NCBI GenBank assembly: GCA_003116975.1
Contig: BGKB01000049.1
Span: 358,182 to 422,181, forward strand
Length of the DNA stretch: 64,000 bases
Source: Aurantiochytrium sp. KH105
Taxonomy: Eukaryota; Sar; Bigyra; Thraustochytrida; Thraustochytriidae
Reading direction: 5' to 3'
Under the pieces are notes generated by a model. It did no database searches. It saw nothing but the letters and a program-made list of their open reading frames with translations, and had not been told where the DNA came from. This document shows, one piece after another, positions 40,761 to 64,000 of this stretch; position 1 is the stretch's first letter; each line of letters opens with the position of its first letter. A program made the position numbers and the translations under genes.

Positions 40761-42314
40761 ATGGCGAACTTAGACGAGACGGCGCTGGCGAGCTTTGTGG
40801 ACTCGACGTGGAAGGAGGACTGCATCCCGAAGCTGTGCGAGTACGTGGCCATCCCAAACCAAAGCCCGCTTTTCGTTGAAAAGGACGATGCAGAGGCCAA
40901 GGAGAACCAGGACAAAGCCATGGCCCTGATCCAGGCATGGGTAGAAGCCCAAGATGTCAACGGTATGAGCGTGGACCTCGTGCAGCTCGAGGAGCGCACG
41001 CCTCTTCTCTTCATCGAGGTGAGCCCCAGTGAGGGTGTTGACCTCGCCAAGGCCGGCACGGTGCTGCTCTACGGGCACATGGACAAGCAGCCGCCATTTG
41101 AGGGCTGGGAGGAAGGCCTCGAGCCGTACAAGCCCGTGGTTCGGGACGGAAAACTCTATGGGCGTGGTGGCGCCGATGACGGGTACAGCGTCTTCACAGC
41201 CGTAACGGCGATCCGCGCGCTGCAAAAGCAAGGCGTCCCGCACGCGCGCTGCGTCATCATTGTAGAGGCGTGCGAGGAAAGCGGCAGCCCAGACCTAAGC
41301 GCATATGTGACCCACCTCAAGGACCGCATCGGGAGCCCCAATCTCGTGGTCTGCCTCGATTCCGGAGCTGGAAACTATGAGCAGCTATGGGTTACGACCT
41401 CGCTGCGTGGCGTCTGCGTGGGTAACCTTTCAGTAGAAATCTCGCGCGAAGGCGTCCACTCGGGTGATGCCTCAGGAATTCTGCCAGATTCCTTTCGCAT
41501 CGCACGCCGCTTGCTTGATCGCATCGAGGATGCTGATACAGGGCGCGTAACCCTGCCAGGCCTCGTGGTGGACATTCCCGATAAGGTGCGCAAGCAGGTG
41601 GCCGACTCGGCTGCCGTGCTTGGCCGTCCTGGCATGATCGACCTCTTTCCCTTTGTCGAGGGCGCCGTTCCCGTCGAGCCCGAAGGCGAGGAACAGCTCA
41701 CGGAGCTTGCTCTCAATCGGTGGTGGCGCGCGCAGCTCACGGTCACGGGCGCAGACGGACTGCCTCCTGCGGGCAATGCCGGCAACGTGCTTCGACCTTC
41801 GACAACTCTTCGGCTCAGCATCCGCTTGCCCCCCACGCTGCCGGGCGCAGACGTTGTCGAAGCCATTCAAACCGCGGTCACTACGGATGTGCCCTATGGC
41901 GCCAAGGTCAGCTTTTCTGGCAAGGTTGGCTCGGGATGGGCAGCGCCGCCAATGGCTTCTTGGCTTGAAGAGGCCGCCAGCGCAGCCTCCAAACAGCACT
42001 ATGGCAAGGATGCCATGATCATGGGTGAGGGCGGCAGCATTCCCTTCATGGGCATGCTCGGCACCATGTTTCCCCAGGCGCAGTTTCTCATTGTTGGCGT
42101 CCTCGGACCGGCGAGCAACGCACATGGGCCCAACGAGTTCCTACACATTGACTTTTCTTCGAAACTTACGAGCTGCATCGCCAGCGTACTCGCAAAGCAA
42201 TGTGCCGCAAATGTCGAGGAGCTTCTAACCTCTGGCAATGGTGCAGATCTTCCGCCCGCCAAACGAGCCAAGGTCGATGAATTCGGTCGCAATGCTGACG
42301 GCACCAAACTCTAA
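40761..42314 (+). CDS. M20-family metallopeptidase/dipeptidase
   Basis: A 517-residue protein starting MANLDETALASFVDSTWKED; codons from 40608 upstream are leader. It is a zinc-dependent M20 exopeptidase that hydrolyses dipeptides. Metal and catalytic motifs are visible: LLYGHMDKQPPFEGW (metal His and adjacent catalytic Asp) near 105, KLYGRGGADDGYS (bridging Asp) near 134, EACEESGSPD (general base Glu and metal Glu) near 170, and CLDSG (metal Asp) near 200. The dimerisation domain follows (REGVHSGDASG with the substrate His) and the C-terminal metal His is likely in the SNAHGPNEF segment near 456. The GHMDKQPP and ADDGYS wording matches the bacterial-type M20 group more than animal CNDP, by recollection of the families. 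Cytosolic; no signal peptide is seen. Confidence 0.9.
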   Translation: MANLDETALASFVDSTWKEDCIPKLCEYVAIPNQSPLFVEKDDAEAKENQDKAMALIQAWVEAQDVNGMSVDLVQLEERTPLLFIEVSPSEGVDLAKAGTVLLYGHMDKQPPFEGWEEGLEPYKPVVRDGKLYGRGGADDGYSVFTAVTAIRALQKQGVPHARCVIIVEACEESGSPDLSAYVTHLKDRIGSPNLVVCLDSGAGNYEQLWVTTSLRGVCVGNLSVEISREGVHSGDASGILPDSFRIARRLLDRIEDADTGRVTLPGLVVDIPDKVRKQVADSAAVLGRPGMIDLFPFVEGAVPVEPEGEEQLTELALNRWWRAQLTVTGADGLPPAGNAGNVLRPSTTLRLSIRLPPTLPGADVVEAIQTAVTTDVPYGAKVSFSGKVGSGWAAPPMASWLEEAASAASKQHYGKDAMIMGEGGSIPFMGMLGTMFPQAQFLIVGVLGPASNAHGPNEFLHIDFSSKLTSCIASVLAKQCAANVEELLTSGNGADLPPAKRAKVDEFGRNADGTKL

Positions 42315-43690
42315 GAGGCCTGATTGCATTTTCCGGTAAACAGATTTATAAGTCATCGTCAACTTGTTCGCCATCAACGTTAGGGGAAACTATGAAGAGC
42401 TCGAGCTCCAGAAGCTTCCCCGCCCGCCGTCACGTTTACTCGCTGAAGAGAGTTCACGCACCGCGGATACACGCGCAATCCCGTTCTTGCTGTTCGCAGA
42501 GCGCGTCCGCGACTACAGGCGACAATCGGACCGGCCGCCTCGGGTGCAGATCCGCTGTGCATGTGGCCGTCCGGCCGGGTCGATGCGTGTTTGCAGCTGC
42601 CAGACAATGAGATGGACCCCCATCGTCGTACAACTTGCAAAGTAGCTCGCCATTTGCGTTGCGCAGAATGCGTTGCGCAAGCAAAGCACCTGGCTGATGG
42701 TTGTTTTGCAGCCTGACAGTAAGAAAAGGAAGACACATGCGCGATTGAGAGCACGTGCGCTTTCAGCTGTTCGCGTGTGGCATGCGGCGCGCGTGGCATT
42801 TGAAAAAGGTAAATCGCTTGCGTGTGCCCCGCAAATGCGCGCGTGCGCCGTACGGTCCATCATGGCGCGGCTGCAGTGAGTGAGCATCCTCTTCTCTACG
42901 TCACTTTCGACGTGTGCTCAACACCGTACGAAGAGGGGAAGCCAGAATAAGCATGCACGCACGAGAGCAGCTTGAAAACAGGTACCATGGTCTCAAGCAA
43001 CGATGGCCCACACCGTCAGCAATTGACCCGAAATTCATTAAGCTTCAAGGATCAATTGTGCGAAGTCTTTTCTCCAAAACGAGGATGCTTGACCTTTGCC
43101 GTCATCTCTAGCTCGTTCGCTCATTCGCAGTACAAAGTCCGCCTCGTCTTACGGTGGATTTGTTACAAGACTACCACACCCAGTTTAATCTTCCAAGCAC
43201 TAGCTTCAATGCTTCTGCAATGCTAGGTATCGCAACTCCTCATCATCGTGCGAAGACTCGCAGACGGAGCGCTCGGTCTGCAAGCTACAATTTGCTTATC
43301 CAGGTCTTTACAACCCAGGCTCGGCGGGACCGCAAAAATCCGGCCAAAAAAATAATAAAAAAAAAAACATTCAACACCGGGACTTCGCGTGCAGTCCCCT
43401 ATCACACTACTAACCCGGCCCTACGTGACTTTTCTGCTCAGTGCGAATGAGATGAGGAGTTGCCCACGTGGTATGATCGAATGTGAGAGCACTGGGAGTT
43501 TGGATCTTATATATTGCTAGTTCAAGTTTGGCCACTTTCAAAAGAAGTATGATCGTTGCGAAGCTGTGTGCCACGCGGCGGCGCCGGGCAAGCGCATGAA
43601 TCCTTACGTAAAAGTTGTCAGGAAGCGTCTGGCCCCTCGAAAAGACGTAAGTTGACCATGAGAATCAAAGCGAAAATTGGTAACTATGTT
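42315..43690. other. Intergenic, no supported gene
   Basis: Mixed sequence with an A-rich tract at 43345-43370. Small ORFs on both strands resemble nothing known. This is the border between the housekeeping block and the accessory LRR-kinase block. Confidence 0.45.
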
Positions 43691-43960
43691 TTAGGAAAAA
43701 GTAAAGTTGTCGCCGACAATATCCGGCGTGAGGAGAGGGCGCAGTCTCTGCTGGACGTTGGCACGCATGTCTGCATCTTCAATTTTATCCGCTATGTAGC
43801 GACGAAGACGTTGTGCACGAAGCCGAGCCCACACTTGCTGTACAAGAGCAAAATTGCTAAAGAATGGGTCTTCTTCGCCAGCAGGATGTGACGCACATGT
43901 TGCAACGTGCTGATGACAAGCGCCTGAGTCATTGCCTGTGTCCTGCAGACAGAGCATCCA
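43691..43960 (-). pseudogene. 3' fragment of an LRR-kinase-RBR paralog
   Basis: The frame reads CLQDTGNDSGACHQHVATC and continues to LRPLLTPDIVGDNF before a stop, matching the last ~85 residues of the gene at 46126-53030 (CLQDTGNDSDACHEHVAAC ... LRPLLTPDIVGDNF). Homology stops abruptly upstream at the CLQDT codons, so only the end of RING2 and the C-terminal tail remain. It lies in the same orientation, 2.2 kb beyond the full gene's 3' end. It is a truncated duplicate, unlikely to be functional. Confidence 0.8.
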
Positions 43961-44793: not shown

Positions 44794-45376
44794 AAACCTC
44801 TCTCCAACGCGCAGATGAGCGCAGGCGCACACCCCAAGCACACACCCTTCCGCGCACCCCTGATCCTGCCTTCACGCGCACCCCTCCCAGGAAGCTAGCT
44901 GCCTGTACCGGGCGCTGTGGCTGTGGAGGGGGGCACTCAAGACAACAGAGTGGCTCTGCAGCGCGCTGCACGAGCACAAGGACGAGAAAGAGGCGCCGGC
45001 ATTCGGTTTTGAAGGCCATGTCAGAATTTGAATAATAGATCGAGAAACGCTCGGGCACGATACGCGTTTCGAGAACTGAGCCACGCATGGCAACTTGGAA
45101 AAAAGAAACAAGTAGGAATGGGGATAACACACCTTCTGCATGCCACTGGTGAGCGGTGTCAGACTCTTTTCCTTGTGATCTTCACTACATAACAAGCACC
45201 TGTGAAAGAGATGACAAGACTTGTGTACAAAGGACTGCCTGTACGCTCATGCACAAAGCCCGTCCGAACGTGCGAGCAAGCCATGCAAGAGCTCTTTGCT
45301 CCAATCCGTCGAGAACATCATCAAAAGGATGAGCCCACGAAATGGCGAGACTCAGACAAGGCAACAAAATGCGACC
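44794..45376. repeat. 583-bp direct repeat, left copy
   Basis: Matches 45499-46081 base for base apart from a few substitutions (for example gcgcag/gcgaag and aatagatcg/aatcgctcg). It ends exactly at the N gap. Confidence 0.9.
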
Positions 45377-45498
45377 NNNNNNNNNNNNNNNNNNNNNNNN
45401 NNNNNNNNNNNNNNNNNNNNNNNNNNNNNNNNNNNNNNNNNNNNNNNNNNNNNNNNNNNNNNNNNNNNNNNNNNNNNNNNNNNNNNNNNNNNNNNNNN
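45377..45498. other. Assembly gap (122 N)
   Basis: A run of N. The sequence after the gap restarts 583 bp back in the sequence before it, so the gap probably joins two overlapping contigs. Confidence 0.98.
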
Positions 45499-46081
45499 AA
45501 GCCTCTCTCCAACGCGAAGATGAGCGCAGGCGCACACCCCAAGCACACACCCTTCCGCGCACCCCTGATCCTGCCTTCACGCGCACCCCTCCCAGGAAGC
45601 TCGCTGCCTGTACCGGGCGCTGTGGCTGTGGAGGGGGGCACTCAAGACAACAGAGTGGCTCTGCAGCGCGCTGCACGAGCACAAGGACGAGAAAGAGGCG
45701 CCGGCATTCGGTTTTGAGGGCCACGTCGGAATCTGAATAATCGCTCGAGAAACGCTCGGGCACGATACGCGTTTCGAGAACTGAGCCACGCATGGCAACT
45801 TGGAAAAAAGAAACAAGTAGGAATGGGGATAACACACCTTCTGCATGCCACTGGTGAGCGGTGTCAGACTCTTTTCCTTGTGATCTTCACTACATAACAA
45901 GCACCTGTGAAAGAGATGACAAGACTTGTGTACAAAGGACTGCCTGTACGCTCATGCACAAAGCCCGTCCGAACGTGCGAGCAAGCCATGCAAGAGCTCT
46001 TTGCTCCAATCCGTCGAGAACATCATCAAAAGGATGAGCCCACGAAATGGCGAGACTCAGACAAGGCAACAAAATGCGACC
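45499..46081. repeat. 583-bp direct repeat, right copy
   Basis: Right-hand partner of 44794-45376. It begins at the first base after the gap. Confidence 0.9.
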
Positions 46082-46125: not shown

Positions 46126-49100
46126 TTATTCGAACCTAAAGTTGTCGCCGACAATGTCTGGCGTGAGGAGAGGGCGCAGGCTCTGCTGGACGTGGGCACG
46201 TACGTCTGCGTCTTCGATCTTTTCCGCCATGTAGTGACGAAGACGTTGCGCACGAAGCCGAGCCCACGCTTGCTGTACAACAGCAAAATCGCTAAAGAAT
46301 GGGTCTTCTTCGCCAGCAGGCTTTGCCGCGCATGCGGCAACGTGCTCATGACAAGCATCTGAGTCATTGCCTGTGTCTTGCAGACACCATGCACAAAAAT
46401 AGCATGCGCAAGCGCCACATTTGAGAGCACAGCAGCCATCAAAGTCAGCAAAGACTGTCGAGCAGCGCGGACACGACATGGCAAGGACCTCATCTTGAAT
46501 GGCGCGAATGTGATTCTGCGTCGTCCGGTCCAATCCATGTTCGCGGAGCGCTGCGTCAACGCGGTCACGAAGCTGACGCTCTTGTTCGGCTGCAGCGTCT
46601 CGCTCAAAGTGCGCGCGCACAATGTCGAGTAGAGCTGCAAAGTCCTCGTCTGGAACCGCGGATGCAATGGCTCGACCAGAAACAAGGAGTTCACAGTCGG
46701 GCGCGACACAGCACATGCTTCCATCCCGTCGTACGTTGACGTGAGCCTGAGCTTGAGTCGCGGCGCGAACCGACCCGCTCAGGCACTCTTTGCACGTAAA
46801 GTGGCCGTCGGCGCAAGAGACGCCTCCACTGACTGGATAAACGTCGAGACAAATGACACATGAGGCCTTCTTCATAGGCTCGGCCTGGAAGGCTTCGTGA
46901 CGCAAGGCCTCAAGTGCAGTGGGTCGCTGTGTTGGATCAGCAGATTGGAGAGACGAAATGAGTGCTTGAATTGCGTCAGACACCTCTGAGCCGTCAAAGA
47001 GCTCCGCGAGCACCACACCCACAGAAAACATGTCCACGGCAGGCTCGACCTTGTCGACATTTCCGTTGCGGAGTTCTGGCGCCATGTACTTGATGGTGGC
47101 CTGCATCGGCTGCGTCATGGTCACATTGTGCGTCTGCACGCCGTCAAAGTCGCCCAGCACCGGCGACAGACCCTTTGCGAGAAAGACATTTTCTGGCTTG
47201 ACATCGCAGTGCACGAAGCCTCGCGAATGCAGATCGTGCAGCCCGCTCAGAAGACCGATAGCGATGCGCAGACGCGTCGCCAAGTCTGCGTGCGAATGAT
47301 CGCGAATCCACGTGGCGAGGTCGCCACCCGAATAAAACGGCATCAGAATGCAGCCATGATGCGCATCCTGCATGAAGGCGCCCTGAATCTGGACAACGTA
47401 GGCCGATTGAATCTGGGCAAGTGCCGCAACTTGATGGTAAAAGCGACTGCTCCACGCCTCGCTGGCGAGATGAAACACCTTGAGCACGAGATCGCGGCCA
47501 TCGGGGCCACGCACTTTTTGCACAGACTTGCCAGGCTTGGACGCAAGCTCCTTGAGAGTGACAAAGTGCTCGCGACGAGCCGTCGTCCGCCATAAGCCCA
47601 GCTTGGACAGCTCCAGCGGTGCCCCGTCGTCGCCCACACCCAGGCGCTTCAGCCACTCTTGGTTCCGGAGCAGCTCAGGGTAGTGCTCTTCTGCGTGACG
47701 CAACAAGCGAGCTCGCTTGTTGCGCAGCTCGCTGTCGAGTTTGTCAACACTTCCGGTTTGAGCAAGCTCTTGCTCCAGGTCAGCGATTCTCGCTTGAGCT
47801 TCCGCGTCACCTCCTCTGGCATCCTCGCGGGCGTCGTCGAGTTCGAAAGCAAGACGCTTGCGCTTTCTCGTCTTGTTTCTGAGGCTCTTGAGAAGAAGCT
47901 CTGCCCCCTCGGTGTTTGGCTCGGTAAGTCCAGACGTGAGGCGAGAGAGCAAATGCCCAAGGTCCTTTACGCGCGAGACCACGCTCGAAATCGTACGAGT
48001 GTAAAACGAGAACATGCAGGCCAACGCACGTCGCACTTTGTCGAGCGGGGCATCTGCCATGGGATTGCCTTTCGACAAGGCGTTGAGCTCCGCAACAAAT
48101 GCTTGGTGCACATTTTGAAGTTCCAATACCAACTCCTGGGATCTCTCGGGATAAGTCAGCGTCATGAAGAATGTAGGCTGAATGCCAAGGCGCCTCGTGC
48201 TCTCTTCTAGTGCGTTGAGAGCTGCAGTGGTGCGCTCGCGTGCAGCAGCAATCGTATCATGGCAAGCCTCCCACGCCTTGATGGCCTCCATCATGGTTCG
48301 AGTTGCCTCCTGTACTTGTCCAAAGGTCACTAGCTCCGCTGCATCGTCGATGTTTTCTGCTTCGCCCAGGATATCTCGCCAGAGCTTGCGACTAGTGTCG
48401 ACCACGTCGTTTGCATCATCTTCAAGCTCACGAAGCTTGATTTGCGAACTCTTTGCGAGAGTCTCTCGAATATACGCGATAAGGTCGCGCCGCATCTGGT
48501 TCCGTTCAGGGATCTTTTCGGGGTCTGTCTTGACGGCTTCCTGCAGTGTGGTGAGCGCTTGCTCTTTCTCAGATACAGCTGCTTGCTGCGAGTCAAAGTC
48601 TGCAACATTGGCAATCGGGTTTTCGCGTGAGAGCTGCTCGGCAAAGAAATCGCGCAGCATTGGATAGTGGAGACCAGCCTTTTCCTCGCTACGCTTTGTC
48701 CGGACCTTGGAAAGCTCCGCGGCAAGAGTCTCGAGCTTGCTCCATTGCCCAGGACCTACAAACACTTGCAGCAACGCACGGCGGTCTTGCAAGCTTGCTA
48801 TCCCCAGTTTCTCAAGCTGGGCGGAAGTGAGACTGCGAATCTTTTTCAATGTCCGCATGCCCTGCTCGTAAAGCTTGACAACCATCTCTCGCAGTGCGTT
48901 GGTTTGTAGCTGCGCTAACGGTAACGAGTGTACGAAAAGAAGGAAGGCGGACAGCGTCACATGAAATTTGGAAGAAGCATTCGCAATTGCCTTCCTTGTT
49001 CCAAGAGACTCGCTCGAAAGACCTACGCTGTGCTTGAAAAGAAGCTTGGCTACAAAAAGAGCATTGTTCTCATCCCTGGCTTCGCAAACGTGAAACAGCG

Positions 49101-52100
49101 CTGTCTGACCAAAAGTGTCCCGCGCGTCGATTCGGGTCCCGCCAACGACCAACTTTTCTGCCTCCAAGATGTCCCCGTTCTTGCACGCCTGCATAAGAGG
49201 CGTCTGGCTCTGTTCGTACAGAGTTTGATTGCGTTCGAGAGCGGCTTTGAGAGCAGGATTGTTGCGGGCGATGCTGTCATTATAAAATGTCAGAAGAAGG
49301 AATTGATGCGGGCTGTGAGCTCTCTTTGGAACTTACTCGAGCGTTTGCAATGTTTTGTTTTCTGTAAGTGCGTTTGCTAGCGCCGTCAAGGCCTCGTGGC
49401 CAATGTGGTTGTAATCAAGACTGCGCCCGTCATAACATGAGACGCCAAGATGAACGAAATCGCGCCAAGGGTGATATTCCGTCGCATCCCATGTGAGCAG
49501 CCGTGTGCGAGATCTGGTCAGCTCTTGTTGCTTGCTTCTTGGGCTTCTGGCCCCAGTTTCACTTTGTCGCAATGACTTACTCCAGCGTCTGCAGCGACTC
49601 ATTGTTCGCGAGTGCGTTTGCTAGCGCCGCGGCGCCCTTGTCGCCAATATTGTTGTCCCGAAGACTGCGCCCGTCATAGCATGAGACGCCAAGATGAACG
49701 AAATCGCGCCCAAGGGTTGCATCCCGCCGCATCCCATGCGAGTGTGCGTACGTGAGTTGTGGTCAGCTCTTGTTGCTTGCTTCTTGGGCTTCTGGCCCCA
49801 CTTTCACTTTCTCGCAATGACTTACCCTAGTGACTGCAGCGACTCATTCTTTACGAGTGCGTTCGCCAGCGCCGTAGCGCCCTCGTTGCCGATCTCGTTG
49901 CCTCCAAGACTGCGCTCGTCATAGCATGAGACGCCAAAATGAACGAAATCGCGCCAAGGGTTGCATCCCGCCGCATTCCGTGCGTGCGTACGTACGTACG
50001 TGAGTTGTGGTCAGCTCTTGTTGCTTTCTTCTTGGGCTTCTAACCCCACTTTCACTTTGTCGCAATGACTTACTCTAGCGTCTGCAGCGACTCATTGTTC
50101 GCGAGTGCGTTCGCCAGCGCCGTGGCGCCCTCGTCGCCGAAATTGTTCTCGGCAAGACTGCGCTCGTCATAACATGAGACGCCAAGATGAACGAAATCGC
50201 GCCCAAGGGTTGCATCCCGCCGCATCCCATGCGTGTGTGCGTACGTGAGTTGTGGTCAGCTCTTGTTGCTTTCTTCTTGGGCTTCTCGCCTCACTTTCAC
50301 TTTGTCGCAATGACTTACAATAGCGTCTGCAGCGACTCATTGCTTGCGAGTGCGTTTGCCAGCGCCTTGACACCCTTTGCGCCGATTTTGTTCTCGCCAA
50401 GACTGCGCTCGTCATAACATGAGACGCCAAGATGAACGAAATCGCGCCAAGAGTTGCAATCCGTCGCATCCCATGCGTGCGTACGTACGTGAGTTGTGGT
50501 TAGCTGTTGTTGCTTCTTGGGCTTCTAACCCCACTTTCACTTTGTCACAATGACTTACTCTAGCGTCTGCAGCGACTCGTTCTTTACGAGTGCGTTCGCC
50601 AGCGCCGTAGCGCCTTCGTCGCCGATTTTGTTGTTATGAAGGCTGCGCTCGTCATAACATGAGACGCCAAGATGAACGAAATCGCGCCAAGGATTGCAAT
50701 CCGTCGCATTCCATGCGTGCGTGAGTGCGTGAGTTGTGGTCAGCTCTTATTGCTTGCTTCTTGGGCTTCTGGCCCCACTTTCACTTTCTCGCAATGACTT
50801 ACCCTAGTGACTGCAGCGACTCATTCTTTACGAGTGCGTTCGCCAGCGCCGTAGCGCCCTCGTCGCCGATGTTATTGTCCAAAAGACTGCGCTCGTCATA
50901 ACATGAGACACCAAGATGAACGAAATCGCGCCAAGGATTGCGTTCAGTGCGTGCGTGTGCGTATGCGAGTTGTGATCAGCTGTTGTTGCTTCTTGGGCTT
51001 CTGACCCCATTTTTACTTTGTCGCAATGACTTACTGTAGTGTCTGCAGCGACCTATTGTTTGCGAGTGCGTTCGCCAGCGCTGTGGCGCCCTTGTCGCCG
51101 AAAGTGTTGTCGCCAAGACTGCGCTCGATATAACATGAGACGCCAAGATGAACGAAATCGCGCCAAGGGTTGCATTTCGTCGCATCCGATGCGCGGGAGC
51201 GTACGTGAGTTGTGGTCAGCTCTTCTTGCTTTCTTCTTGGGTTTCTTTATGGCCCCAATTTCACTCTGTCGCAATGACTTACTATAGCGTGTACAGTGAC
51301 TCGTTCTTTACGAGTGCGTTCGCCAGCGCCGTAGCGCCCTCGTGGCCGATATTGTTGTGAAAAAGACTGCGCTGGTCATCACATGAGACACCAAGATGAA
51401 CGAAATCGCGCAAAGGGTTACATTCCGTCGCATTGCATGCGTGCGTGCATACGTGAGTAGTGGTCAGCTTTCGTTGCTTCTTGGGCTTTTGGCCCCACTT
51501 TCACTTTCTCGCAATGACTTACTCTAGCGTCTGCAGCGACTCGTTGTTCGCGAGTGCGTTCGCCAGCGCCGTAGCGCCCTCTTTGCCGATCTTGTTCCAC
51601 TCAAGACTGCGCTCGTCATAACATGAGACGCCAAGATGAACGAATTCGCGCCAAGGGTTGCATCCCGTCGCATCCCATGCGCGCGTACGTGCGTACGTGA
51701 GTTGTGGTCAGCTCTTGTTGCTTTCTTCTTGAGTTTCTTTATGGCCCCACTTTCACTTAGTCGCAATGACTTACTATAGCGTGTACAGTGACTCGTTCGT
51801 TACGAGTGCGTTCGCCAGCGCCGTAGCGCCCTCGTGGCCGATCTTGTTGTCGGCAAGACTGCGCTCGACATAACATGAGACGCCAAGATGAACGAAATCG
51901 CGCCAAGGGTTGCATCCCGTCGCATCCCGTGTGAGCAGGCGTGTGTGAGATCTGGTCAGCTCTTGTTGCTTGCTTCTTGGGCTTCTGGCCCCACTTTCAC
52001 TTTCTCGCAATGACTTACCTGAGCGTGTGCAGCGACTCATTGTTCGCAAGTGTGTTCGCAAGCGCCATAGCGCACTCGTCGCCGATATGGTCCCCCTGAA

Positions 52101-53030
52101 GACTGCGCTCGACATAACATGAGACGCCAAGACGAACGAAGTCGCGCCAAGGATTGCATTCCGTCGCATCCCATGCGTGCGAGAATACGTGAGTTGTGGT
52201 CAGCTTTTGTCGCTTCTTGAGCTTCTGAACCCACTTTCACTTTTTCGCAATGACTTACTCTAGCGTATGCAGCGACTCACTGCTCGCGAGTGCGTTCGCC
52301 AGCGCCGTAGCGCCCTCGTAGCCGATGTAGTTGTATCTAAAACTGCGCTCGTCATAACATGAGCGCCAAGATGAACGAAATCGCGCCAAGGGTTGCATTT
52401 CGTGCGTGCGTGTGCGTATATGAGTTGTGGTCAGCTGTTGTTGCTTCTTGGGCTTCTAACCCCACTTTTACTTTGTCGCAATGACTTACTCTAGCGTCTG
52501 CAGCGACCCATTGTTTGCGAGTGCGTTCGCCAGCGCCGTGGCGCCCTCGTCGCCGAAATTGTTCTCGGCAAGACTGCGCTCGTCATAACATGAGACACCA
52601 AGATGAACGAAATCGCGCAAAGGGTTACATTCCGTCGCATCCCATGCGTGCGTGCGTGTGTACGTGAGTTGTGGTCAGCTCTTGTTGCTTTCTTCTTGGG
52701 TTCTGGCCCTACTTTGACTTGGTCGCAATGACTTACAATAGCGTCTGCAGCGTCTCACTGCTCGCGAGTGCGTTCGCCAGCGCCTTGGCACCCTCGTCGC
52801 CGATCTTGTTCCACTGAAGACTGCGCTCGTCATAACATGAGACGCCAAAATGAACGAAATCGCGCCAAGGCTTGCATTACGTCGCATTCCATGCGTGCGT
52901 ACGTGCGTACGTGAGTTATGGTCAGCTCTTAATTTGGGAGGTCTCACAATTTGTTATATACGTACTCGATTCTTGTCGCGCCGTTTTCTATCGCCTCAAT
53001 CGCTCTGTTGAGCTTATCTTGAGTGCTCAT
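46126..53030 (-). CDS. LRR-ankyrin-kinase-RBR receptor-like protein, 17 exons
   Basis: Exon 1 is 52966-53030 (MSTQDKLNRAIEAIENGATR), followed by fifteen 84-nt LRR exons (listed with the repeat at 49337-52820) and a final exon 46126-49273. All junctions are GT-AG and phase 2; the joined length is 4473 nt, 1490 residues. Order of parts: leader 1-21; 15 LRRs of 28 residues to about 441; ankyrin-like TPLMQACKNGD...DTFGQTALFHV; SAM-like helix SLTSAQLEKLGI; helical middle. The kinase (about 1000-1235) has LVLKVF lysine, HCDVKPEN catalytic loop with HCD for HRD, DFD for DFG, and APE. RING1 is CVICLDVYP...CADGHFTCKEC near 1250; an IBR-like cysteine region follows; RING2 is CPRCSTVF...DGCCALKCGAC near 1374, with a candidate catalytic Cys. 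No transmembrane segment or signal peptide is visible, so it may be a cytosolic sensor that phosphorylates and ubiquitinates. Joined exon model is from sequence; function is inferred. Confidence 0.85.
49337..52820 (-). repeat. Array of fifteen 84-nt LRR exons with near-identical introns
   Basis: Exons in transcript order: 52737-52820, 52490-52573, 52259-52342, 52019-52102, 51775-51858, 51523-51606, 51283-51366, 51035-51118, 50803-50886, 50559-50642, 50319-50402, 50074-50157, 49826-49909, 49581-49664, 49337-49420. Each is exactly 84 nt, open, and encodes LxxNxIGDEGATALANAL followed by xxNESLQTLD, an NLR/ribonuclease-inhibitor-type LRR. Introns of 145-168 nt all start GTAAGTCATTGCGA (exon 1 uses GTACGT) and end ATGACGAGCGCAG or close variants, with a shared interior. 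The period is about 240 bp. The last intron, 49274-49336, is only 63 nt and unrelated. Confidence 0.95.
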
Positions 53031-55147
53031 CGTCGCAATCTAGTTGCACTCAAGAACTTTACACGCGGCCTCCTCACGAAGATCACAACTTCAAATTAAT
53101 GCTCTGCAGGGACCAGTATACGCTTGTAGCTGATACAACGTTGACACGTCTTTCTCCAAGATGACGACGGGAATCTGGCGGCAAGGCGAGGACGCTGTCA
53201 AGCGACGAGCGAAAGGAGCCGAGACCGCAGCGGCGCCGCAGCCAGAGAAACTTGGCACCACGTGCACGAGGGCAAGACGGATGCGCTGTTGGTTTAGCGC
53301 GGCTTCTCTACGAGCGTCTCGTGCTTGGTGTCGACGCCGCAAGCGCACAGGCAGATAGGCGAAGACAACGACCGTCTAATCTCAGTTCGTTAGCCGATCG
53401 CCCGGTACGCCGCGCGGGTCGAGAGCAGACAAGAAGAGCGCGCAGCGAAGGAAGCGCGGGAGGGGGCGCCACACGCACGTACGAGCGCGCACGAGCACGC
53501 GCGCGCTTGCCTCGAGCCGAGCCCACCCACGAGATCGTTCGCGCTCTGCATATGGCCGCTCGCATGGATCGACCGGGGAAACTTTCTCGTCGGCCGGGTA
53601 TACGAGGCTCCACATTCTCATTACACCTGAGTTTCTCCGTAAGCGCCGGATATTCTCCGAAGCGTGCTCAGAGATGAGATGCTGCCAAGTGTCTGGGGAA
53701 GAAAGAAGCAGACGGGGACATGAGGAGCGCGAGGCAGACGCGTCTGATGAGTAGGGGAGGCTGGCAGGCGCGGTGCTGCTGACGCCGGCGCATGGAGTGA
53801 GCCGCTGTTGGTGCGCCACGAACAGGCTACGCGTCGGTCCGCTACGCTGCGAGCTTTCTTGCTTCGGTGACCGATCAATCGAGCGAGTTGGCCAAGGTCG
53901 CAGCGGCTGCGGCCGGGTTCTACTTGCAAGCGCACACTTTCTTTCTGGGAATCGAGGCAAGGAAAGGGGCGAAGGGAAAGGAGGAGAGATGTCCGAAGCT
54001 GCGGCACGCGCCGCGAGGGCCGCCTCGAGGATGCTGCTGCTGCTAGGGTCCGCATCGCGCGCTGCGCCAGAGCGGCCTGGGGGCTGACAGCTGGCAGGCT
54101 GGCTGGCTGGGGGCCCAGGGCCCGTTGGGAAGACGCGCTGTCCCTGGTGGCTGTCGAGACGATGTGGGCTCGCGCGGGAAGAGGAAGAAAAAAAAAAAGG
54201 TGGTCGTGCAAGGGCAACTTGCGTGGCCGCCAAAGAGATCGACAGACGAGTGAAGATCTTCATCATCTTCTTATTCTTACTCTCGGCGACGTGTCGCTTG
54301 GACGGTGGTTAGTGCCATACGGTGATAACAGAATACGTTTGGCGAGAGACTGGGGCGAGACCAGCTGTGAGTTGGTTGAGCGCAAGCATTTTGTTTCCTC
54401 CTTCAATGGGGTAAAAGGCATGACAGTGATGAGCACGTCTTTTCGAGCAGTGACAAACATTCGCCCTTGATTCTTCTCTTGGACCAAGACTGCCTCGTGA
54501 GCCACGCGTCTGGCTTTGGCGTCGGTGTCCAACTTGCCGCGCTGCAGCTGCGAGCTCGTTGATGTGCCAAGGTCTACATCAGCCAAGTGTTTTATCCGTG
54601 CGCTGCAAAGTGAATCATTGGTCCGTGCAAATGAACAAACAGTCAGGCGCAATCGGCAAAGGCTTGGCGAGTCTCTCTTGTCTCATCGCCGCCGCCGACG
54701 CAGATGATGACGCCCGAAGTCGCGCGGAGACGCTAGGGGCGCGCCCAGGCAGCGCGCGGGCCCTGACAGAGGGCGTTGAGAGCCCGATGTGCTCAGGCGG
54801 ACGCGCGCTCGTGGCAGGTCTCGCCGCAGCGCCTTGCCGCAGGGAGCGGCTTGAAGATGGATGGATTGAGCCAACGACCATGAGCCCAACGACGAGCCGT
54901 GGCGCGAAGGCGGCGACTGCAGGCGCGGGTGTCGGCGACGTGAGCGAGAGAGCCAGCAGAGAAGCGGGGGGATGTGAGAGGTGAGCTGCAGTGGAGACGT
55001 GCAAGTTAGAAAGACCGCTTTGCGCTACCCGAAGATTCGACCTGGTGTGCACTAGCAAGCAAGGCGGAAAAAAGGCTGCCGCAACGTCTTGGGCCTCGGC
55101 GAGCACTTCAGGTCAGGGCAAGGGCGTTTCAAACATTCTCGCAACAT
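53031..55147. other. Intergenic, no supported gene
   Basis: Upstream flank of the LRR-kinase-RBR gene and 3' flank of its decayed paralog. The long minus-strand ORF at 53382-54266 is Ser/Pro/Arg-rich with no family resemblance and I do not call it. A repeat-poor, moderately GC-rich stretch. Confidence 0.4.
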
Positions 55148-57025
55148 TTACCAGTCGAACCTAAAGTTTTCGCCGACATTGTCCGGCGCAAGGAGTGGAC
55201 GTAGCTTGGCCTGGACGATGGCACGTATGCCTGCATCCTGAATACGATTTGCCATGTACTCACGGAGACGCTGTGCTCGAAGTCGAGCCCATGCTTGCTG
55301 CACGACAGCAAAATCGCTAAAGAATGGGTCCTTTTCTCCACCAGGTTTTGGTGCGCATCTCGCCACGTGCTGATGACAAGTCTGCGAGTCATTGCCTGTA
55401 TCCTGGAGACACCATGGGCGAAACGACACGGGCAAACGCCGCATGACAGAGCACAGCAGCCGTTAAAGTCGGCAAAGGCTGTCGAGCAGCGCGGGCACGA
55501 CATGACGAGGACTGAATTTTGAATTGTGTGAAGGTGATTCTGCGTCGTCGGATCCAGCCCATGTTCACGCAGAGCTGCATCGAGACGAAACTAGAGCTGG
55601 CGCTCCTGCTCGGCTGCGGCGTCTCGCTCAAAATGCTTGCGCACAATGTTGAACCAATTCGCAAAGTCTTCTGGGACAGCAGTTGCTATGCATGTCCTCT
55701 GATGAGGAGTTCGCAGTCTGACGCGACACAGCACATGCTGCCATCGCGCAAGAAATTCACGTGAGCATCATGCTGAGCCGCGGCACGGACTGTGTGGCCC
55801 AAGCACTCTTTGCACGTAAAGTGCCCGACAGCGCAAGAGACACCCTCATCGGCGGGATAAATGTCGAGGCAAATGGCACACGAGGCCTCCTTCACAGGCT
55901 CGACCTGAAAGGCCTCGTGATACAAGGCGTCGAGTGCAGTAGGCCGCTGACTTGGATCTTCAGACCGCAGAGACGATATTAGTGACTTGGTTGCTTCTGA
56001 TATCTCTGTGTTCTCGAAGAGCTTCGCGAGAACTACGCTCACAGAGAACATGTCCACGACAGACTCAATCTTGTCAACAACTTCGTCGCGCAGCAGCTCG
56101 GGCGCCATGTGTTGCTTGGTCGTTTGCAAAGGCTGCGCCATGGTTTCGTCGTGCATCTAGACGCCGTCAAAGTCCCCTAGCACTGGTGAAAGACTTGGTG
56201 CAGGGAAGATATTCTTTGGCTTGATGTCGCAATGCACGAAACCTCGCGAGTGCAAATCGTGCAAACCATACAAAAGACCGGTGGCGATGCCCCTGCGCGT
56301 CGCCAAGTCTGCAAACGAGTTGTCTCGAATCCAGGCATCAAGGTCGCCACCCTTGTAAAAGGGCATCAAAATGCAGCCCTGATGCGCATCCTGCATGAAG
56401 GCGCCCTGAATGCGCACAATACAGGCTGATTCTATCTGAGCAAGCACTGACGCCTGACGGTAAAAGCGACTGCTCCGCTTTTCGTTGGCGAGATGAAAGG
56501 ATTTGAGCACAAACTCATGGCCATTTAGATCGCGTAGAAGTAGGACAAATTTGCCAGAATTGGATGAAAGCTGCGCGGCAGTCTCAAAATCTCTACGCGT
56601 TGCGTTCGTCAGCCAGAGACCCAACGTGGACAGCTCGTGGGGTATGCTATTTCGTATGCGCAAGCTCTTGATCCAATCTTGGTTTTGTATCAATTCAGAA
56701 AAATGTTCTTCCGCATGCTTCAACACCTGTGCGCGCTCTTTGTGCAGCTCGCTGTCGAGCTTGTGACCTCTCCCAATCTGAGCAAGCTCATGCTCGAGGC
56801 CAGGAATTCGAGCTCGAGCTTCTGTATCTCCGTTATTGGCATCCTTGCGGGCGTAGCGAAGATCGTGTTCAAGCCGTTCACGCTTCCGCTTCGTTTTGTG
56901 CATGCTTTGCATACTCTCTTCTACGCCCGTCGTNGCATGATCGCTTCTACGCCCGTCGTGCACGGCTCACACAGTCCGGGAACGTGCTGAGACAGCACCT
57001 CGGTGAGCTCTTTGACGCTCTGTTG
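55148..57025 (-). pseudogene. Decayed, 5'-truncated LRR-kinase-RBR paralog
   Basis: Homologous to residues from about 850 to the end of the 46126-53030 protein: helical middle (SVKELTEVLSQHVPG, TKRKRERLEHDLRY), kinase (FVLKSFHLANEK, HCDIKPKNIF, DFDG), RING1 (CAICLDIYP...CAVGHFTCKEC), RING2 (CPRCSTAFADFNGCC) and tail (CLQDTGNDSQTC, ending GENFRFDW). Breaks: an in-frame TAG at 56157-56159 directly after DFDGV, where the intact gene has a Gln codon; a one-base frame change near 55690 after LLIRGHA; a second in-frame TAG near 55590 in the inter-RING linker; and a further frame change near 55420 before CLQDT. A lone N at 56934 is flanked by a 16-bp direct repeat and may be a join. The LRR and ankyrin parts are missing: homology ends near 57025 at the tandem-repeat array. 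Confidence 0.85.
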
Positions 57026-57202: not shown

Positions 57203-58684
57203 TATTGAGGTTGATGAGGGAAGAGTCAGAGAAAACCAAGATCAAAGATCCGTTACGAGCGCGAGTCAACCATCATCGTCAGGCCTAACAAGGCCAAGCG
57301 TTCTGAAGGTTCCAAGGGCTCGCGGGCCTAACACACATTGGCCTGAGCAGTTGGCTCGAGCAGCTGGCTCGAGCAGCTGGCTCGCGCGCGGCCCACTCGC
57401 GCGGCATGATCGCCGTGCAGCCTGGCGTGCGGGCCGGCCGGCGCGCGGCCTAACTACGCGCGCGCGCGCGCGCGCCGTACCTTCTGCCCGTCTGCGCGCC
57501 CGCAGTCCAGACGAGTGCAGCCTGCCCAGCGTGGGCATCGTGCCAACGCCATGCTTCATCTATAGAGCAGAACAGCGTAGACGGCCCGCTTGGCCGTGCG
57601 GCCACGCTGTGCGTTAGCTCGCGCAATCGGAAACGTACCGGACAGTCCGTCCCCTCGCGAGCCTTGACCGACCTGCCGCCTCGCGCACCTTCACCGAGCG
57701 GAGTGCCGCGCGGCGTGCCGCGCGGCGTGCCATAGCCAGCAATTCCTAATTCCAACCATCATCGATCTTTCCTCTCCTCGATGGATCAATAGATTGAGAG
57801 TCATTTCTTTGCCCTTGCAACCGGGCCCTTCTCATGGGCACTAGCATTTTCTTGCTACGCCTTCTTTCCGCTTCGCCTCTCTTTCTTTCTTTCTTCATTT
57901 TCATTCTTCTCCTTTCATTCTTTCCTTCGTTCATTCCTCCTTCTTTTCCTCTTTTCGCTATGTCTGCCGCCAGCCCTACTCCCTCCTCGACGGCTACGTC
58001 CATGTCTGCTGCAACCATTTCCACTTCCGTTCCGACCGCCGTGTCCAACATCCTCCGCACCATCCCCTTTCGCGACATCCCTCGGCTCGGGTCGACTCCG
58101 TCTCCAGCAGAATGGGCTTCCTGGCGGAAGTCCATGAGCTGCCTTACGTCTGCTTACTTCAACTTCGATCTCGGTCGCACGGGAATGCCATTCAATTGGT
58201 CTCCCTCCGATGCTATTCCTGTCGACGACACTATTGACAAGGCGCTGTATCACGTGCTCATGTACGCTGTGCACGAATCGTCGCACCTCACGCTCGAGCA
58301 CGACAACAGCACTCGCAGCGGCATCCGCGCATTCTTCAACCTCCTCGCCACCGTGGAACGGTTGGAGCCGTCTCACTTTCATTCCCTCCTGCAAAAATTG
58401 CGCCTTCTCAGCACTCGGCAAGACGGCGATCCCGATGCATGGGAAACCTACGTTCGCGAAACGAAATCCATCCTGGCCACACTCCGTCGTTCCCCCGCTC
58501 ATGCCGCCAACTGTCACGTCTATGCCTTCCCTGACGTTTTCTCCGCGGCACCGGTACACATCCCGTCCGTGTCGGCCATTGTGGCTCGCATGAACATTAG
58601 CACCGGCTCCGATGACGCATCCGCTGCTTGTTACGACCTCGAGCGTTTCTTCGTTGACGTACATGCAGCTCTGTTGGATCAATA
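57203..58684 (+). mobile_element. 1.48-kb inserted element, candidate deleted LTR retrotransposon
   Basis: The element is inserted in a repeat unit: GATGG lies on both sides (57198-57202 and 58685-58689), a 5-bp target duplication, and the flanks join to rebuild an ordinary unit. Its ends are inverted: TATTGA at the left, TCAATA at the right. The 13 bases TGGATCAATAGAT occur both at 57782-57794 and at 58675-58687. If 57203-57791 is a left LTR ending in GGATCAATA, the element could be LTR plus leader plus a partial gag, with the rest removed by recombination between the two GGATCAATA copies, leaving only the 3' LTR tip. The termini are not the usual TG...CA, so a DNA transposon with short inverted ends is possible. 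Confidence 0.65.
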
Positions 58685-58685
58685 G
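57960..58685 (+). CDS. Gag-like ORF inside the inserted element, 241 residues
   Basis: Starts at MSAASPTPSSTATS; an earlier in-frame ATG at 57834 would add a hydrophobic leader that derives from a pyrimidine run. After a Ser/Thr-rich head, residues about 45-241 are helical, with WASWRKSM, IDKALYHVLMYAVHE, RAFFNLLATVERLE and DAWETYVRETKSILATLRR, a spacing like the UBN2/copia-type Gag capsid domain. No zinc knuckle, protease or reverse transcriptase follows, because the frame stops at TAG on the element's last bases (L-D-Q-stop). Capsid-like function is inferred from pattern only. It may be a truncated gag. Confidence 0.45.
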   Translation: MSAASPTPSSTATSMSAATISTSVPTAVSNILRTIPFRDIPRLGSTPSPAEWASWRKSMSCLTSAYFNFDLGRTGMPFNWSPSDAIPVDDTIDKALYHVLMYAVHESSHLTLEHDNSTRSGIRAFFNLLATVERLEPSHFHSLLQKLRLLSTRQDGDPDAWETYVRETKSILATLRRSPAHAANCHVYAFPDVFSAAPVHIPSVSAIVARMNISTGSDDASAACYDLERFFVDVHAALLDQ

Positions 58686-60071
58686 ATGGTTCAACTTGAC
58701 CAAAAAAGACGAAATCATAATGGGAGCGAGTGTTTATGGCAGGCGTTTGCTACGTCGCGGCCACGAAAAAAGTACGCGCGTGGCAGGACGAGGCGGCGCA
58801 GGGTAAGAGCTAGTGCCGAGGCAAGCGCCGACCTCGTCAGAACAGTCGTTGTCTCTGCAGTGGATGCGAAAAGCGGCTCGTTATCGAGGGCTAAAAAAGA
58901 AGGCAAGCTGGCTGGGCTTGTTCGCCGCAGATCTCGATGGTAAGGCTGCAGATCGTCCGCGCAGGCTGCGTGCAGGCTTTGGCAAGATTTTGTGACGTCA
59001 CGTAAGCATTTTGGCATGGATTAGGGGCCTTGACGGTGGTCCATGAGGCTTTTGTTCATAGAAGAGGAGGTGTGCACGTGCGAGCGAAGCAGCTACACAA
59101 GCTGCAGACCCGATGAGACGAGTTTGCCAAGCGGATTGGCATAAATGGTGATAGACATTGTATGCGATCGTTTGCAAGATGGTTGACGCCTGTTGCAGTC
59201 GTGATTGTCTTGCAAGCGAGCCCAGAGTGCATTACACGTGCAAAGTATTGGCTTGAAGATTGGTCTTACGGATAGAAAAAGGTGCCGCATCGTCAGTGAG
59301 TGGTCAACTTTGCGTGAGCAAGCCTGTTCGAGAGCTGGTTTACGGATCAGAGAAATACCAGCCGCGTTCGAGGTGCAAGAAGGCGAGGAAGGTTAAAGTG
59401 AACCATATGGGACAGCGTTGGCAACGCACGCGAGAGCATGCGACTGCAGTGCGATCATGGTCGCAGAGCTTGAGGAAGGCTGGCAGGCATGTGTCAGATC
59501 CACGAGAGCAGTTCTGACAGCGTGCTGCTTGTGCAAGTCAAGGCTAGCGTTGCGAACGAGATGTTGCTTGGCTAAGTAGATGAGCTTTGGTCCGGCCTCA
59601 GCCTGCCGGCCCTGGCGGATGATCTGCAAACGAGCTTGCCAAGACTGGTCCAAGTGAGTAGCTTGGCTCTACGATCTTTGTTTGGATCGAGCGACTGTTG
59701 TTGGAAAGAAAAGCATGATAGTGCATTTGACCCTTTCATTTCTTGTTCTTGAGCCGAGATGTTTGTTGGTTGACACGTTGCCTGCAGAAGAAATGAGCAG
59801 CGTCGTAGGACAGAGCGACGCGTGCGATGCATAGGTCTTGCACGAAGAGGTGGCGTGGCTCGATTTCGTCGGCGTGGGCGGAGAGCTCGTGCAGGCAGCG
59901 TTGTGTGAAAAAAAATACACACTCACAAAAACACGAAAATGAGGTGCGGCTTTGTGGCGCGAGATCGAGCGAGCGAGGAATGGCAGAGGCAAGACAGAGG
60001 GGGGGATGGCCAGCGTAGGACTGGTGCAAGAGCTGAGCGTGATTGCTTTTGCCAGTAAATGCCACGTGCGG
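58685..60071. repeat. ~1.4-kb tandem repeat, unit 1 (remainder after the insertion)
   Basis: Starts with gatggttcaacttgaccaaaaa, includes a GAGCGAGTGT...GGCAGGCG segment, ctggctgggcttgttcgccgcagatctcg, and ends with the ccacgtgcg box. Period to the next unit is about 1.39 kb. Contains no intact gene. Confidence 0.85.
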
Positions 60072-60880
60072 GAGTGATGGCTGGCTAAACTTGGTCAAAA
60101 ATCACGAACAGATAAGGAGAGAATATGGGAGCGAGTGTATATGGCAAGCTTTGGCTACGTCACGGCCACGAAAAAGTACGNAAGGCGAGGAAGGTAAAAA
60201 TGAACAATATGGGACAACGTTGGCAACGCACACGAGAGCATGCAGCTGCAGTGCGATCATAGTCGCAGAGCTTGAGGAAGGCTGGCAGGCATGCTTCAGA
60301 TCCGCGAGAGCAGTCTCGGAAGCGCGCGGCTTGTGTAAGTCAAAGGTAGCGTTGCGAGTGAGGTGTTGCTTGGCTACGTTGATGTGATTTGGCCCGGCCT
60401 CAGCCTGCCGACACTGACGGATGAACTGCAAATGAGCTTGACAAGGCTGGTCCAAGTGAGTAGCTTGGCTCTACGATCTTTGTTTGGATGAAGTGACTGT
60501 TATTGGAGAGAAAAGCATGCTAGTGCGTTTGTCTCTCTTTCCTTTTTTATTCTTGAGCCGAGCTCATTGTTGATTTCGTTGTCAGCAGAAGAGGTGAGTA
60601 GCGACGTAGGACGGGGCGACGCGTGCGATGCATAGGTCTTGCACAGAGAGGTGACGTGGCTTGATTTGGTCGGCGTGAGCAAAGAGCTCGTTCAGGCAGC
60701 GCTGTTGTGAAAAAAAAAAAAAAGACGACACAGAAAATAGAAGGAAATGAGGCGTGGCTTTGTGGCACCAGACCGAGCAAGCGAGGCATGGCGGAGGCGA
60801 AACAAAGGCAGCGGAAGGTAGCGCAGGTCTAGTGCAGGAGCTAAGCGTGATTGCTTTTGCTGTCAATGATCACGTGCGAC
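60072..60880. repeat. ~1.4-kb tandem repeat, unit 2 (collapsed at an N)
   Basis: Begins ggagtgatggctggctaaacttgg and jumps at the N (60181) from cacgaaaaagtacg to naaggcgaggaagg, skipping about 590 bp present in the other units. It is either a real deletion or an assembly join. Confidence 0.8.
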
Positions 60881-62280
60881 AGTGAAGGGTGGCAAGAGTT
60901 GACCAAAAAGAACGAACAAATAAAGAGAGTATATGCGAGCGAGTGTTCATGCCAGGCGTTTGCTAATGCAAGACCATGGAAAAATACGCGCATCGTAGGA
61001 CAAGACGGCGCAGCGTCCGAGCTACAGCTGATGCAGGCGCCAAGCTCGTCGGCACAGTCGTCATCTCAGCAGTGTATACGGAACGCGGCTGCTTGTTGAG
61101 AGCTAAAAAAGAAGACGAGCTGGCCGGGCTTGCTGTCACAGATGTCGATGCATTGGCTGCAGATCGTCCGACCAGGCTGCGTGCAGGCTCTAGCAAGATG
61201 TTGTGGCGTCATGCCATCATTCTTGTATGGATCAAAGGCCTTGGCGGTGGTCCATGAGGCGTTTGTTGCACAGAAGTGGAGATGGACGCGGGTTCGCGAC
61301 GCCGCCACGCAAGCTGCAGACCCGGCAAGACGAGCTCGCCAAGCTGACTGGCACGTATGGGCGCTGTTGATCATATTTGTTTGTTTGCGAGATTGTTGAC
61401 CCATGTTGTAGGTGTGCTTGTTTGGCAAGAGAGCCCAACGTGCATTGTACGTGCAAGGAATTGGCTTGTAGACTGACTGCACGGATAGAAAAAGATGCCG
61501 CATCGCCAGCGAATGTTCGAACTTGCGTAGACAGGCTTGTGTGAGAGCTGCGCTGCGAATCAGAGAGATACCAGCTGCCTTCAAGGTGCAAGAAAGAGAG
61601 CAAAGTAATGGTGAATACTATAAGGCAGCGTTGGCAACTCACGCCAGAGCAAGCAAATGCAGTGCGATCATGGTCGCGGAGCTTGAGGAAGACTGGCAAG
61701 CATATGACAGAAGCGCGAGAGCAGTTCTGGCAGCGTGCGGCTCGTGCAAGTCAAGACAGCGTTGCAAACGAGGTGTTGCTTGGCTAATTGATGTGCTTTG
61801 GCCCAGCCTCAGCCTGCCAACACTGACGGATGATCTGCAAATGGGCTTGCAAAGGCTGGTCTAGGTCTGTGGCTTGACGCCATGGCTTCAATTGGATCGA
61901 ACGACCGTTGTTGGAGAGAAAAGCATACTAGTGCGTCGCTTCTTTTCCTTTTTGTTATTTGAACCGAGCTCTTTGTTGGTTTCGTTGCCTGCAGAAGAGG
62001 TGGGCGGCGTCGTTGGACAGTGCGACACACGCAATGCGTAGGTCTTGCACAGGAAGATGACGTGGCGCGATTTCGTCGGCATGGACAAAGAGCTCGTGCA
62101 GGCAGCGCTGTTGTGAAAATAAAAGACACAAAAAAAAAAGAAGAAAATGAGGTGTGGCTTTGCGGCACGAGATCGAGCAAGCGAGAGATGGTAGGGGCGA
62201 AACAAAGACAGCAGTAGACAGCGCAGGTCAAGTGCAAGAGCTGAGCGTGGTTGCTTTTGCTGTCGGCGACCACGTGCAGC
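60881..62280. repeat. ~1.4-kb tandem repeat, unit 3
   Basis: Begins agtgaagggtggcaagagttg and ends at a ccacgtgcagc box. Full length 1400 bp. Same order of conserved blocks as units 1 and 4, with many substitutions and small indels, so the array is not recently homogenised. Confidence 0.88.
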
Positions 62281-63690: not shown

Positions 63691-64000
63691 GTGGAGGATA
63701 GTTGAAGTTGGCAAAAAAGAGGCGAACAAATAAGGGGAGAATATGTGAGCGAATGTAGGGCAGGCGATTGCTACGTCAAGACCATGAAAAAGTACGCGCA
63801 TCGTAGGGCGAGACGGTGCAGAGTAGGAGCTAGTGCCGAGACAAGCGCTGGGCTCGTCGGCACAGTTATCGTCTCTGCAAGGGATGCGAAAAGCGGCTGC
63901 TTGTTGAGGCAAGAAAAAGAAGAAAAGCTGGCTGGGCTCGTTCGCCGCAGATCTCGCTGAGAAGACTGCAAATCGTCTGCGCACGCTACGTGCAGGCTTT
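63691..64000. repeat. ~1.4-kb tandem repeat, unit 5 (cut by window end)
   Basis: Begins gtggaggatagttgaagttgg and runs to the window end, so the array continues beyond it. Confidence 0.85.

Follow-up and report, generated by a model that had tools for sequence, protein, structure and literature searches.

A leucine-rich-repeat, ankyrin, kinase and RING-type gene family with hypervariable repeat codons in Aurantiochytrium sp. KH105

Here we describe a gene on the minus strand of a 64,000-nt stretch of DNA from the thraustochytrid Aurantiochytrium sp. KH105 (GenBank assembly GCA_003116975.1, contig BGKB01000049.1, positions 358,182 to 422,181; hereafter the window). The gene runs from window position 53030 to 46126 and joins a leucine-rich-repeat (LRR) array to ankyrin repeats, a protein kinase domain and a RING-type zinc region. 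It belongs to a large family whose LRR exons differ most at a handful of codons, a pattern that we read below as that of a candidate receptor repertoire.

The window gene and its domains

The seventeen exons of the model join to 4473 nt including the stop codon, with no internal stop, and predict a protein of 1490 aa; all 16 introns are GT-AG, and the reading phases match throughout. The leader, fifteen LRR exons and stop-free frame proposed in a preliminary description of this DNA were thereby reproduced, and both the gene structure and a single polypeptide carrying the LRR array, ankyrin repeats, kinase and RING-type zinc region are supported. The features of the gene, all on the minus strand, are as follows.

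52966..53030: leader exon 1 (MSTQDKLNRAIEAIENGATRI-) with donor GTACGTAT, from the exon model; whole or as its 3′ half in 10 other loci
49337..52820: LRR array of fifteen 84-nt phase-2 exons with introns of 147-168 nt, from the exon model, Pfam and PDB matches
49337..49420: LRR exon nearest the tail, which carries the terminal-repeat signature (A/T/S)ENK of the family (18/18 loci with cassettes)
46126..49273: last exon (the tail), with ankyrin repeats, SAM-like segment, helical linker, kinase, two RING-type motifs and the stop codon
49030..49212: ankyrin repeats (Ank_2)
48769..48867: SAM-like segment (SAM_1, below cut-off)
46903..47520: protein kinase domain (Pkinase and PK_Tyr_Ser-Thr)
47203..47208: C and D of HCD, with catalytic Asp 1132; Asn in 5/18 copies
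47143..47151: DFD replacing DFG; both Asp in 18/18 copies
46693..46860: RING1-like zinc motif; profile match to RNF216, Cys/His invariant
46330..46473: second RING-type motif with Rcat (RING2)-like spacing and candidate catalytic Cys 1389; Rcat identity not established

Each LRR exon measures exactly 84 nt, sits in phase 2 and encodes one 28-residue repeat of ribonuclease-inhibitor/NLR-like type, and the PDB matches of the array include ribonuclease inhibitors and NLRs (NLRP proteins). Pfam searches of the whole protein returned LRR_6 (E=9e-74), Ank_2 (E=5e-7) and Pkinase (E=1.5e-28; 100 bits against a cut-off of 31.7), all above cut-off, which bears out the LRR-ankyrin-kinase fusion first described. 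The SAM-like segment described with it stands in part: SAM_1 does match (E=0.0027 with a piece of 81 aa and 0.049 with one of 547 aa) but stays below cut-off in both. Other sub-threshold Pfam matches were set aside, namely HopA1 inside the LRRs, CheR_N and DEK_C between the zinc motifs, and ANK_LRRK2. A simple hydropathy scan of the protein found neither a hydrophobic N-terminus nor any window of 19 residues scoring above 1.5, unlike the signal peptide and transmembrane helix expected of LRR receptor-like kinases; we infer a cytosolic location.

Within the kinase, HCD and DFD replace HRD and DFG, just as initially read from the DNA, in a domain whose profile passes its cut-off. Conservation was followed across an alignment of 18 family tails, from which locus L031, with its stop, and loci L034, L035 and L040, whose tails are incomplete, were left out. 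The VAIK lysine (Lys 1040) and both Asp residues of DFD, the second of them in place of the DFG glycine, are invariant in 18/18. The catalytic Asp of HCD is kept in 13/18 (the window gene and 12 others), the motif reading HCN in L028, L029, L030, L032 and L033. Because the catalytic Asp is Asn in these 5/18 copies, some family members are predicted pseudokinases.

The zinc region contains two cysteine sets of RING type that are nearly invariant in the family. The Cys/His residues of the RING1-like motif are invariant across tails, and those of the second motif (CPRC-x9-C-x4-C-x2-C-x4-C-x2-C) are invariant in 18/18, save one His and one late Cys at 17/18 each; candidate catalytic Cys 1389 is kept in all 18. 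This spacing resembles that of the Rcat cysteines in the Parkin pattern. With a profile of 20 paralogous regions, the best PDB match was the RING-between-RING (RBR) ligase RNF216, at RING1 (E=0.0015). A second stretch aligned CPRC...GCC with the RNF216 Rcat, not significantly, and in one of two RNF216 chains Ala stands where the Cys would align, presumably as in an active-site mutant. A fold search with the model of the zinc region gave no match at E<=0.001; its top, insignificant match was again RNF216, and four of 13 weak rows were RBR ligases (RNF216, ARIH1 twice, ARIH2). The difference from RNF216 lies between the two motifs, where AlphaFold predicts a helical stretch at low confidence and no BRcat/IBR was found: IBR_1 appeared in 2/20 members with a best E of 0.027, not near cut-off. 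Pfam RING and IBR families were likewise below cut-off in the window gene, with a best E over the 20 paralogous regions no better than 0.01. Because no BRcat was found and the intervening stretch is predicted to be helical, the region is read as two RING-type motifs, a RING1 and a possible Rcat, and not as a complete RBR. Of the RBR module in the preliminary description, the two cysteine sets and the RNF216-like RING1 thus remain, but not the IBR/BRcat or a significant Rcat alignment.

A gene family with hypervariable strand codons

Matches to the last exon mark at least 43 places in the genome, a recurrence far beyond chance; the 49 matching rows include six that are second pieces of a place already counted, and 43 is a lower bound, with 43 of 728 candidates scored. 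Where full-length, the matching exons are 58-95% identical to that of the window gene, so that what had been proposed as a stand-alone system belongs to a large family. Viral contigs and prokaryotic contigs, scanned once each, yielded no relative. Twenty regions with their 5′ flanks were compared together with the window, 21 sequences in all. A profile found 145 LRR cassettes in 18/21 sequences (1-17 each), all on the strand of the tail, each consisting of an 84-nt phase-2 exon and an intron of about 160 nt, upstream of the last exon. Some arrays are truncated by contig ends. A strict pattern gave 135 cassettes in 18/21 sequences, the window included; 13 places of the profile listing were not strictly intact, three being offset copies of strict ones and ten being extra. 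These ten cassettes are in frame, two of them with in-frame insertions and unconfirmed exon ends. A single cassette pair used as query produced 248 overlapping matches genome-wide.

The order of parts recurs across the family. The cassette nearest the tail carries (A/T/S)ENK, as judged by reading, in all 18 loci with cassettes, and a leader exon with a GT donor lies in 10 other loci, five of which keep only its 3′ half; it was not found in the remaining seven cassette-bearing loci, four of them cut by a contig end. Sixteen of the 17 full-length tails from other loci are open over ~1040 codons. The L031 tail has an in-frame stop, and L035 changes frame near its end. No pair among 19 tails compared exceeds 97.5% identity, and the ratio of nonsynonymous to synonymous substitution rates (dN/dS) lies at 0.22-0.44 in the 11 pairs for which it was calculated, out of 171; by this measure, the tail is under purifying selection. 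Two loci on contig C57, L038 and L039, have tails 66% identical to that of the window gene and no LRR cassette in the DNA examined, and are possible signalling partners without a sensor.

Variation in the cassettes is concentrated at a few codons. Measured on 112 cassettes with a full intron, the first and second positions of codons 1 (split), 3, 4, 6 and 9 have a mean heterozygosity of 0.531, compared with a mean of 0.122 in the intron columns, whose highest value is 0.491 and of which 0/156 reach 0.531. The other codons have a heterozygosity of 0.091, and their third positions 0.212. Codons 1, 3 and 4 (0.53-0.71) drive the contrast and lie above the intron range, and glycine 8 and leucine 15 are kept in 135/135 cassettes. 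We take the hypervariable codons to lie on or next to the LxxLxLxxN strand, at the concave face of the repeat. The direction of the contrast is that expected from diversifying selection, with codons chosen after the fact.

Six stretches picked for similar introns were then compared, the window gene being denoted W. Each line gives the hypervariable, other exon and intron positions that differ.

L031 cassettes 1-3 against 2-4: 20/45, 6/207 and 4/512 (differences 57-fold more frequent at hypervariable than at intron positions, Fisher p=1e-20)
L031 cassettes 3-5 against 4-6: 8/45, 4/207 and 1/516
W cassettes 8-12 against L036 cassettes 3-7: 36/75, 40/345 and 66/819
L026 stretch: 10/45, 8/207 and 32/505
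L040 stretch: 5/45, 3/207 and 32/520
L030 stretch: 4/30, 9/138 and 34/356

The tails of W and L036 are 74% identical, yet the two genes have one 160-nt intron in common without a difference. Short blocks also recur: the 24-nt variable blocks fall into 115 distinct types, 99 seen once and 16 in more than one cassette, nine of these 16 in different loci. The simplest account would be an exchange of cassettes and short blocks between genes, coupled to diversifying selection.

Chromosomal setting of the family loci

For 18 of the 20 best-scoring loci, a contig end is no more than 21 kb away, where ~20% would be expected (p=4e-11, the limit being set after seeing the data); this enrichment is confounded by assembly breaks, since repeats also break assemblies. 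In the window itself, tandem repeats of 1.3-1.4 kb, about 72-96% alike and subtelomere-like, occupy 58685-64000. They run from the gene to the end of its contig (C49), likewise reach the ends of C87 and C151, and occur on many further contigs. A search for four exact TTAGGG units found no tract in the genome (other telomere units were not searched), and ten contig ends inspected by eye showed no telomere repeat, several lying inside LRR arrays or shared flanks. The receptor loci are likely subtelomeric.

Many of the kinase matches come as near-identical pairs placed on different contigs, a sign that the 76.0-Mb, 367-contig assembly probably holds separated haplotypes. On C72, a PfaA-like ketosynthase/ACP open frame (930 bits, under the family's cut-off of 1010 bits; the family also gives matches in 11 of 14 control genomes) sits ~5 kb from a 2081-aa open frame on the opposite strand that has a ketosynthase match, an arrangement like that of the PUFA-synthase genes of thraustochytrids. 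A dipeptidase-like gene at window 40761-42315, presumably of CNDP type, has a 99% copy on C90, taken as the contig of the other haplotype. C49 and C90 are 95% alike up to window 42395; beyond it, 1.4 kb of C90 has no homology to window 42396-43815, and no tail or flank is among the matches listed for C90. Because the homology stops there and no tail is listed on C90, the receptor block is probably hemizygous.

Three further features belong to the family, all on the minus strand.

53063..54200: 5′ flank common to 11/20 other loci at 78-92% identity, with varying match length
55154..56933: truncated second member of the family, in pieces that cover linker, kinase and zinc region at 63-76% identity
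43697..43951: third, truncated piece with the C-terminal 85 residues, 82% identical

Positions 1-2875 of L036 (contig C248) correspond at 92% to window 54061-56918, and so to the truncated member and its 5′ neighbourhood. The 3′ flank of the gene is directly repeated (44794-45360 and 45499-46065, 98%) around an N run at 45377-45498, perhaps an assembly join. Some 5 kb from another tail on C15, a stretch of 55 bp (C15:903889-903943) repeats the beginning of the dipeptidase gene at 98% identity, a hint that receptor flanks have been duplicated. The window also holds a 5S ribosomal RNA gene at 43366-43484 on the minus strand (Rfam RF00001, 89 bits), whose many matches on other contigs suggest dispersed copies, and at 57798-58685 on the plus strand a 295-aa open frame that looks, by eye only, like a retrotransposon protein of gag type.

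A candidate nonself-receptor repertoire

The reading we favour, at a probability of roughly 0.62, is that the family constitutes a cytosolic, fast-diversifying repertoire of nonself receptors, of which the window gene is one member. Interchangeable one-exon repeats would build the LRR horseshoe, with concave-face residues that vary from repeat to repeat and probably bind nonself ligands that vary, for instance proteins of viruses or microbes, or allotypic partners. A bound ligand would release, cluster or oligomerise the ankyrin/SAM-like/helical linker and so switch on the kinase, while in the HCN copies a pseudokinase scaffold would signal instead. Ubiquitination of the ligand, or of a partner in signalling, would follow through the RING-type module with its RING1 and possible Rcat. 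Copying of exon-intron cassettes and short variable-codon blocks within and between genes would create new specificities, with selection keeping the backbone and the tail. What the sequences themselves document is the anatomy and evolution of the family; the putative immune-like role suggested in the preliminary description draws support from this pattern of variation. A stronger form of the reading — an actively reshuffled repertoire at chromosome ends, its codon blocks swapped faster than introns change, wired to kinase or pseudokinase and ubiquitin ligase as anticipatory immunity in a single-celled stramenopile — we hold to be rather doubtful.

Several observations weigh against the favoured reading. 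The hypervariable codons were picked from the same cassettes in which they were then measured, which inflates the size of the contrast, and codons 6 and 9 alone (0.23-0.47) fall within the intron range. In a first pass with ungapped flanks, mean exon diversity (0.218) was about that of the introns (0.212 and 0.219). L031 was by choice the most extreme array, its comparisons overlap so that cassettes enter twice, and its tail has the stop noted above; the L040 and L030 stretches show weak contrast. Like L038 and L039, L034 (truncated tail) has no LRR cassette in the DNA examined. NACHT, NB-ARC, ROC and TIR gave no Pfam match on the whole protein at E up to 0.01, and hence no link of that kind to a known immune pathway. 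For the second zinc motif, RNF4 with its plain RING is a better match (E=0.0023) than any Rcat, which lowers only the Rcat part of the reading, and AlphaFold models of the zinc region and tail are poor, with mean predicted local distance difference test (pLDDT) scores of 58 and 52.

Some of these points favour a view of the family as an ordinary expanded set of scaffold or signalling proteins whose LRRs vary by neutral drift under concerted evolution and have no recognition role. Concerted evolution is real here: introns are homogenised in places, those of L031 cassettes 1-6 differing at 0-3/158 nt, mean exon and intron diversities are equal with ungapped flanks, and 18/20 of the best-scoring loci lie near contig ends, where turnover may be high. 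Drift would not, however, make the first and second positions of strand codons the least alike next to near-identical introns and other codons, nor would it leave glycine 8 and leucine 15 in every one of the 135 cassettes, and we consider this explanation unlikely. Somewhat less likely still is directed diversification, in which targeted mutation or programmed short-tract conversion, possibly somatic, writes the hypervariable codons. L031.4,.5 and.6 agree at every position of both introns and the exon save exon nt 83, which falls in the split hypervariable codon; in 20 (overlapping) cassette pairs with introns less than 2% apart, 33.5% of hypervariable positions differ; and 99/115 variable blocks have no second copy in the sample. 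All these would suit a writing mechanism, but all four bases appear in the codons, with neither an adenine-only nor a cytosine-only signature, and we rejected on that ground adenine mutagenesis like that of diversity-generating retroelements; two of the six distinct L031 blocks are copied exactly elsewhere (W.1 = L031.3, L026.2 = L031.1). Because L031 blocks have exact copies in other genes, gene conversion with selection may suffice.

The remaining alternatives question the gene itself, and we rejected them on phase, strand, signature, open-frame and dN/dS evidence. A division of LRR array and last exon into two genes, or an array that is a non-coding satellite, could be argued from the L038 and L039 tails that lack cassettes; either is very improbable given matching phases throughout, 145/145 cassettes on the tail's strand, a terminal signature adjoining the tail in 18/18 loci with cassettes, codon-specific conservation, and a leader exon upstream in 10 other loci. 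An equally improbable view is a decaying pseudogene array near a chromosome end, for which the two truncated copies in the window, the L031 stop and the L035 frame change would speak. Against it stand the 16/17 open full-length tails, dN/dS of 0.22-0.44 in 11 pairs, and second-motif zinc-ligand residues kept in at least 17/18.

If the favoured reading is true, a unicellular protist would have a hypervariable cytosolic receptor repertoire, exon-per-repeat LRR diversification would recur outside brown algae with a new output in a kinase and RING-type module, and the findings would bear on protist resistance to viruses and other intruders. Each variable exon has next to it an intron that can act as an internal clock, and for this reason the family would offer a directly testable system for how repeat-based recognition diversifies. 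Among the papers listed for thraustochytrids, labyrinthulids and Hondaea/Aurantiochytrium (8-15 per search, of up to 18,102), none described such a receptor family in its title or the start of its abstract, and absence from print is not established.

Individual parts of the architecture have counterparts elsewhere. LRRK1 and LRRK2 combine ankyrin repeats, LRRs and a kinase with a variant DFG motif in one cytosolic protein; the window protein differs in that no ROC-COR was found, its LRRs come first and are hypervariable, and its C-terminus is of RING type. Plant KEG likewise unites RING, kinase and ankyrin repeats in one polypeptide, but with the RING first and no LRR array. The HNWD proteins of Podospora anserina carry WD repeats with a NACHT domain and have no exon-per-repeat structure, unlike the window family. 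By the features tested, the window protein is not a ROCO, an NLR or a complete RBR: neither the ROC-COR domains of the first nor the NACHT or NB-ARC of the second matched at E up to 0.01.

The closest parallels lie in how the repeats vary. ROCO (LRR-ROC-COR) genes of brown algae are reported to have 72-bp exons in phase 2, each encoding one 23-aa LRR, in tandem and shuffled, with selected sites on the concave face, and are candidate immune receptors (PMC11378527). One in-phase LRR per exon and tandem arrays are found in the window family too, but with 84-nt exons, 28-aa repeats, no ROC-COR found, and a tail with kinase and RING-type motifs; judged on sequence, the family has the array logic of brown-algal ROCOs and not their family membership. 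In Podospora anserina, repeats of the HNWD genes het-d and het-e are reported to be exchanged within and between members, with diversifying selection on a small number of codons per repeat at the interaction surface and a known function in allorecognition (PMC1805685). Repeat exchange and few variable codons per repeat are common to both; in the window family, a recognition role is putative. The window family would thus resemble most, in its way of working, the shuffled-LRR ROCOs of brown algae and the HNWD genes of Podospora, built on another architecture.

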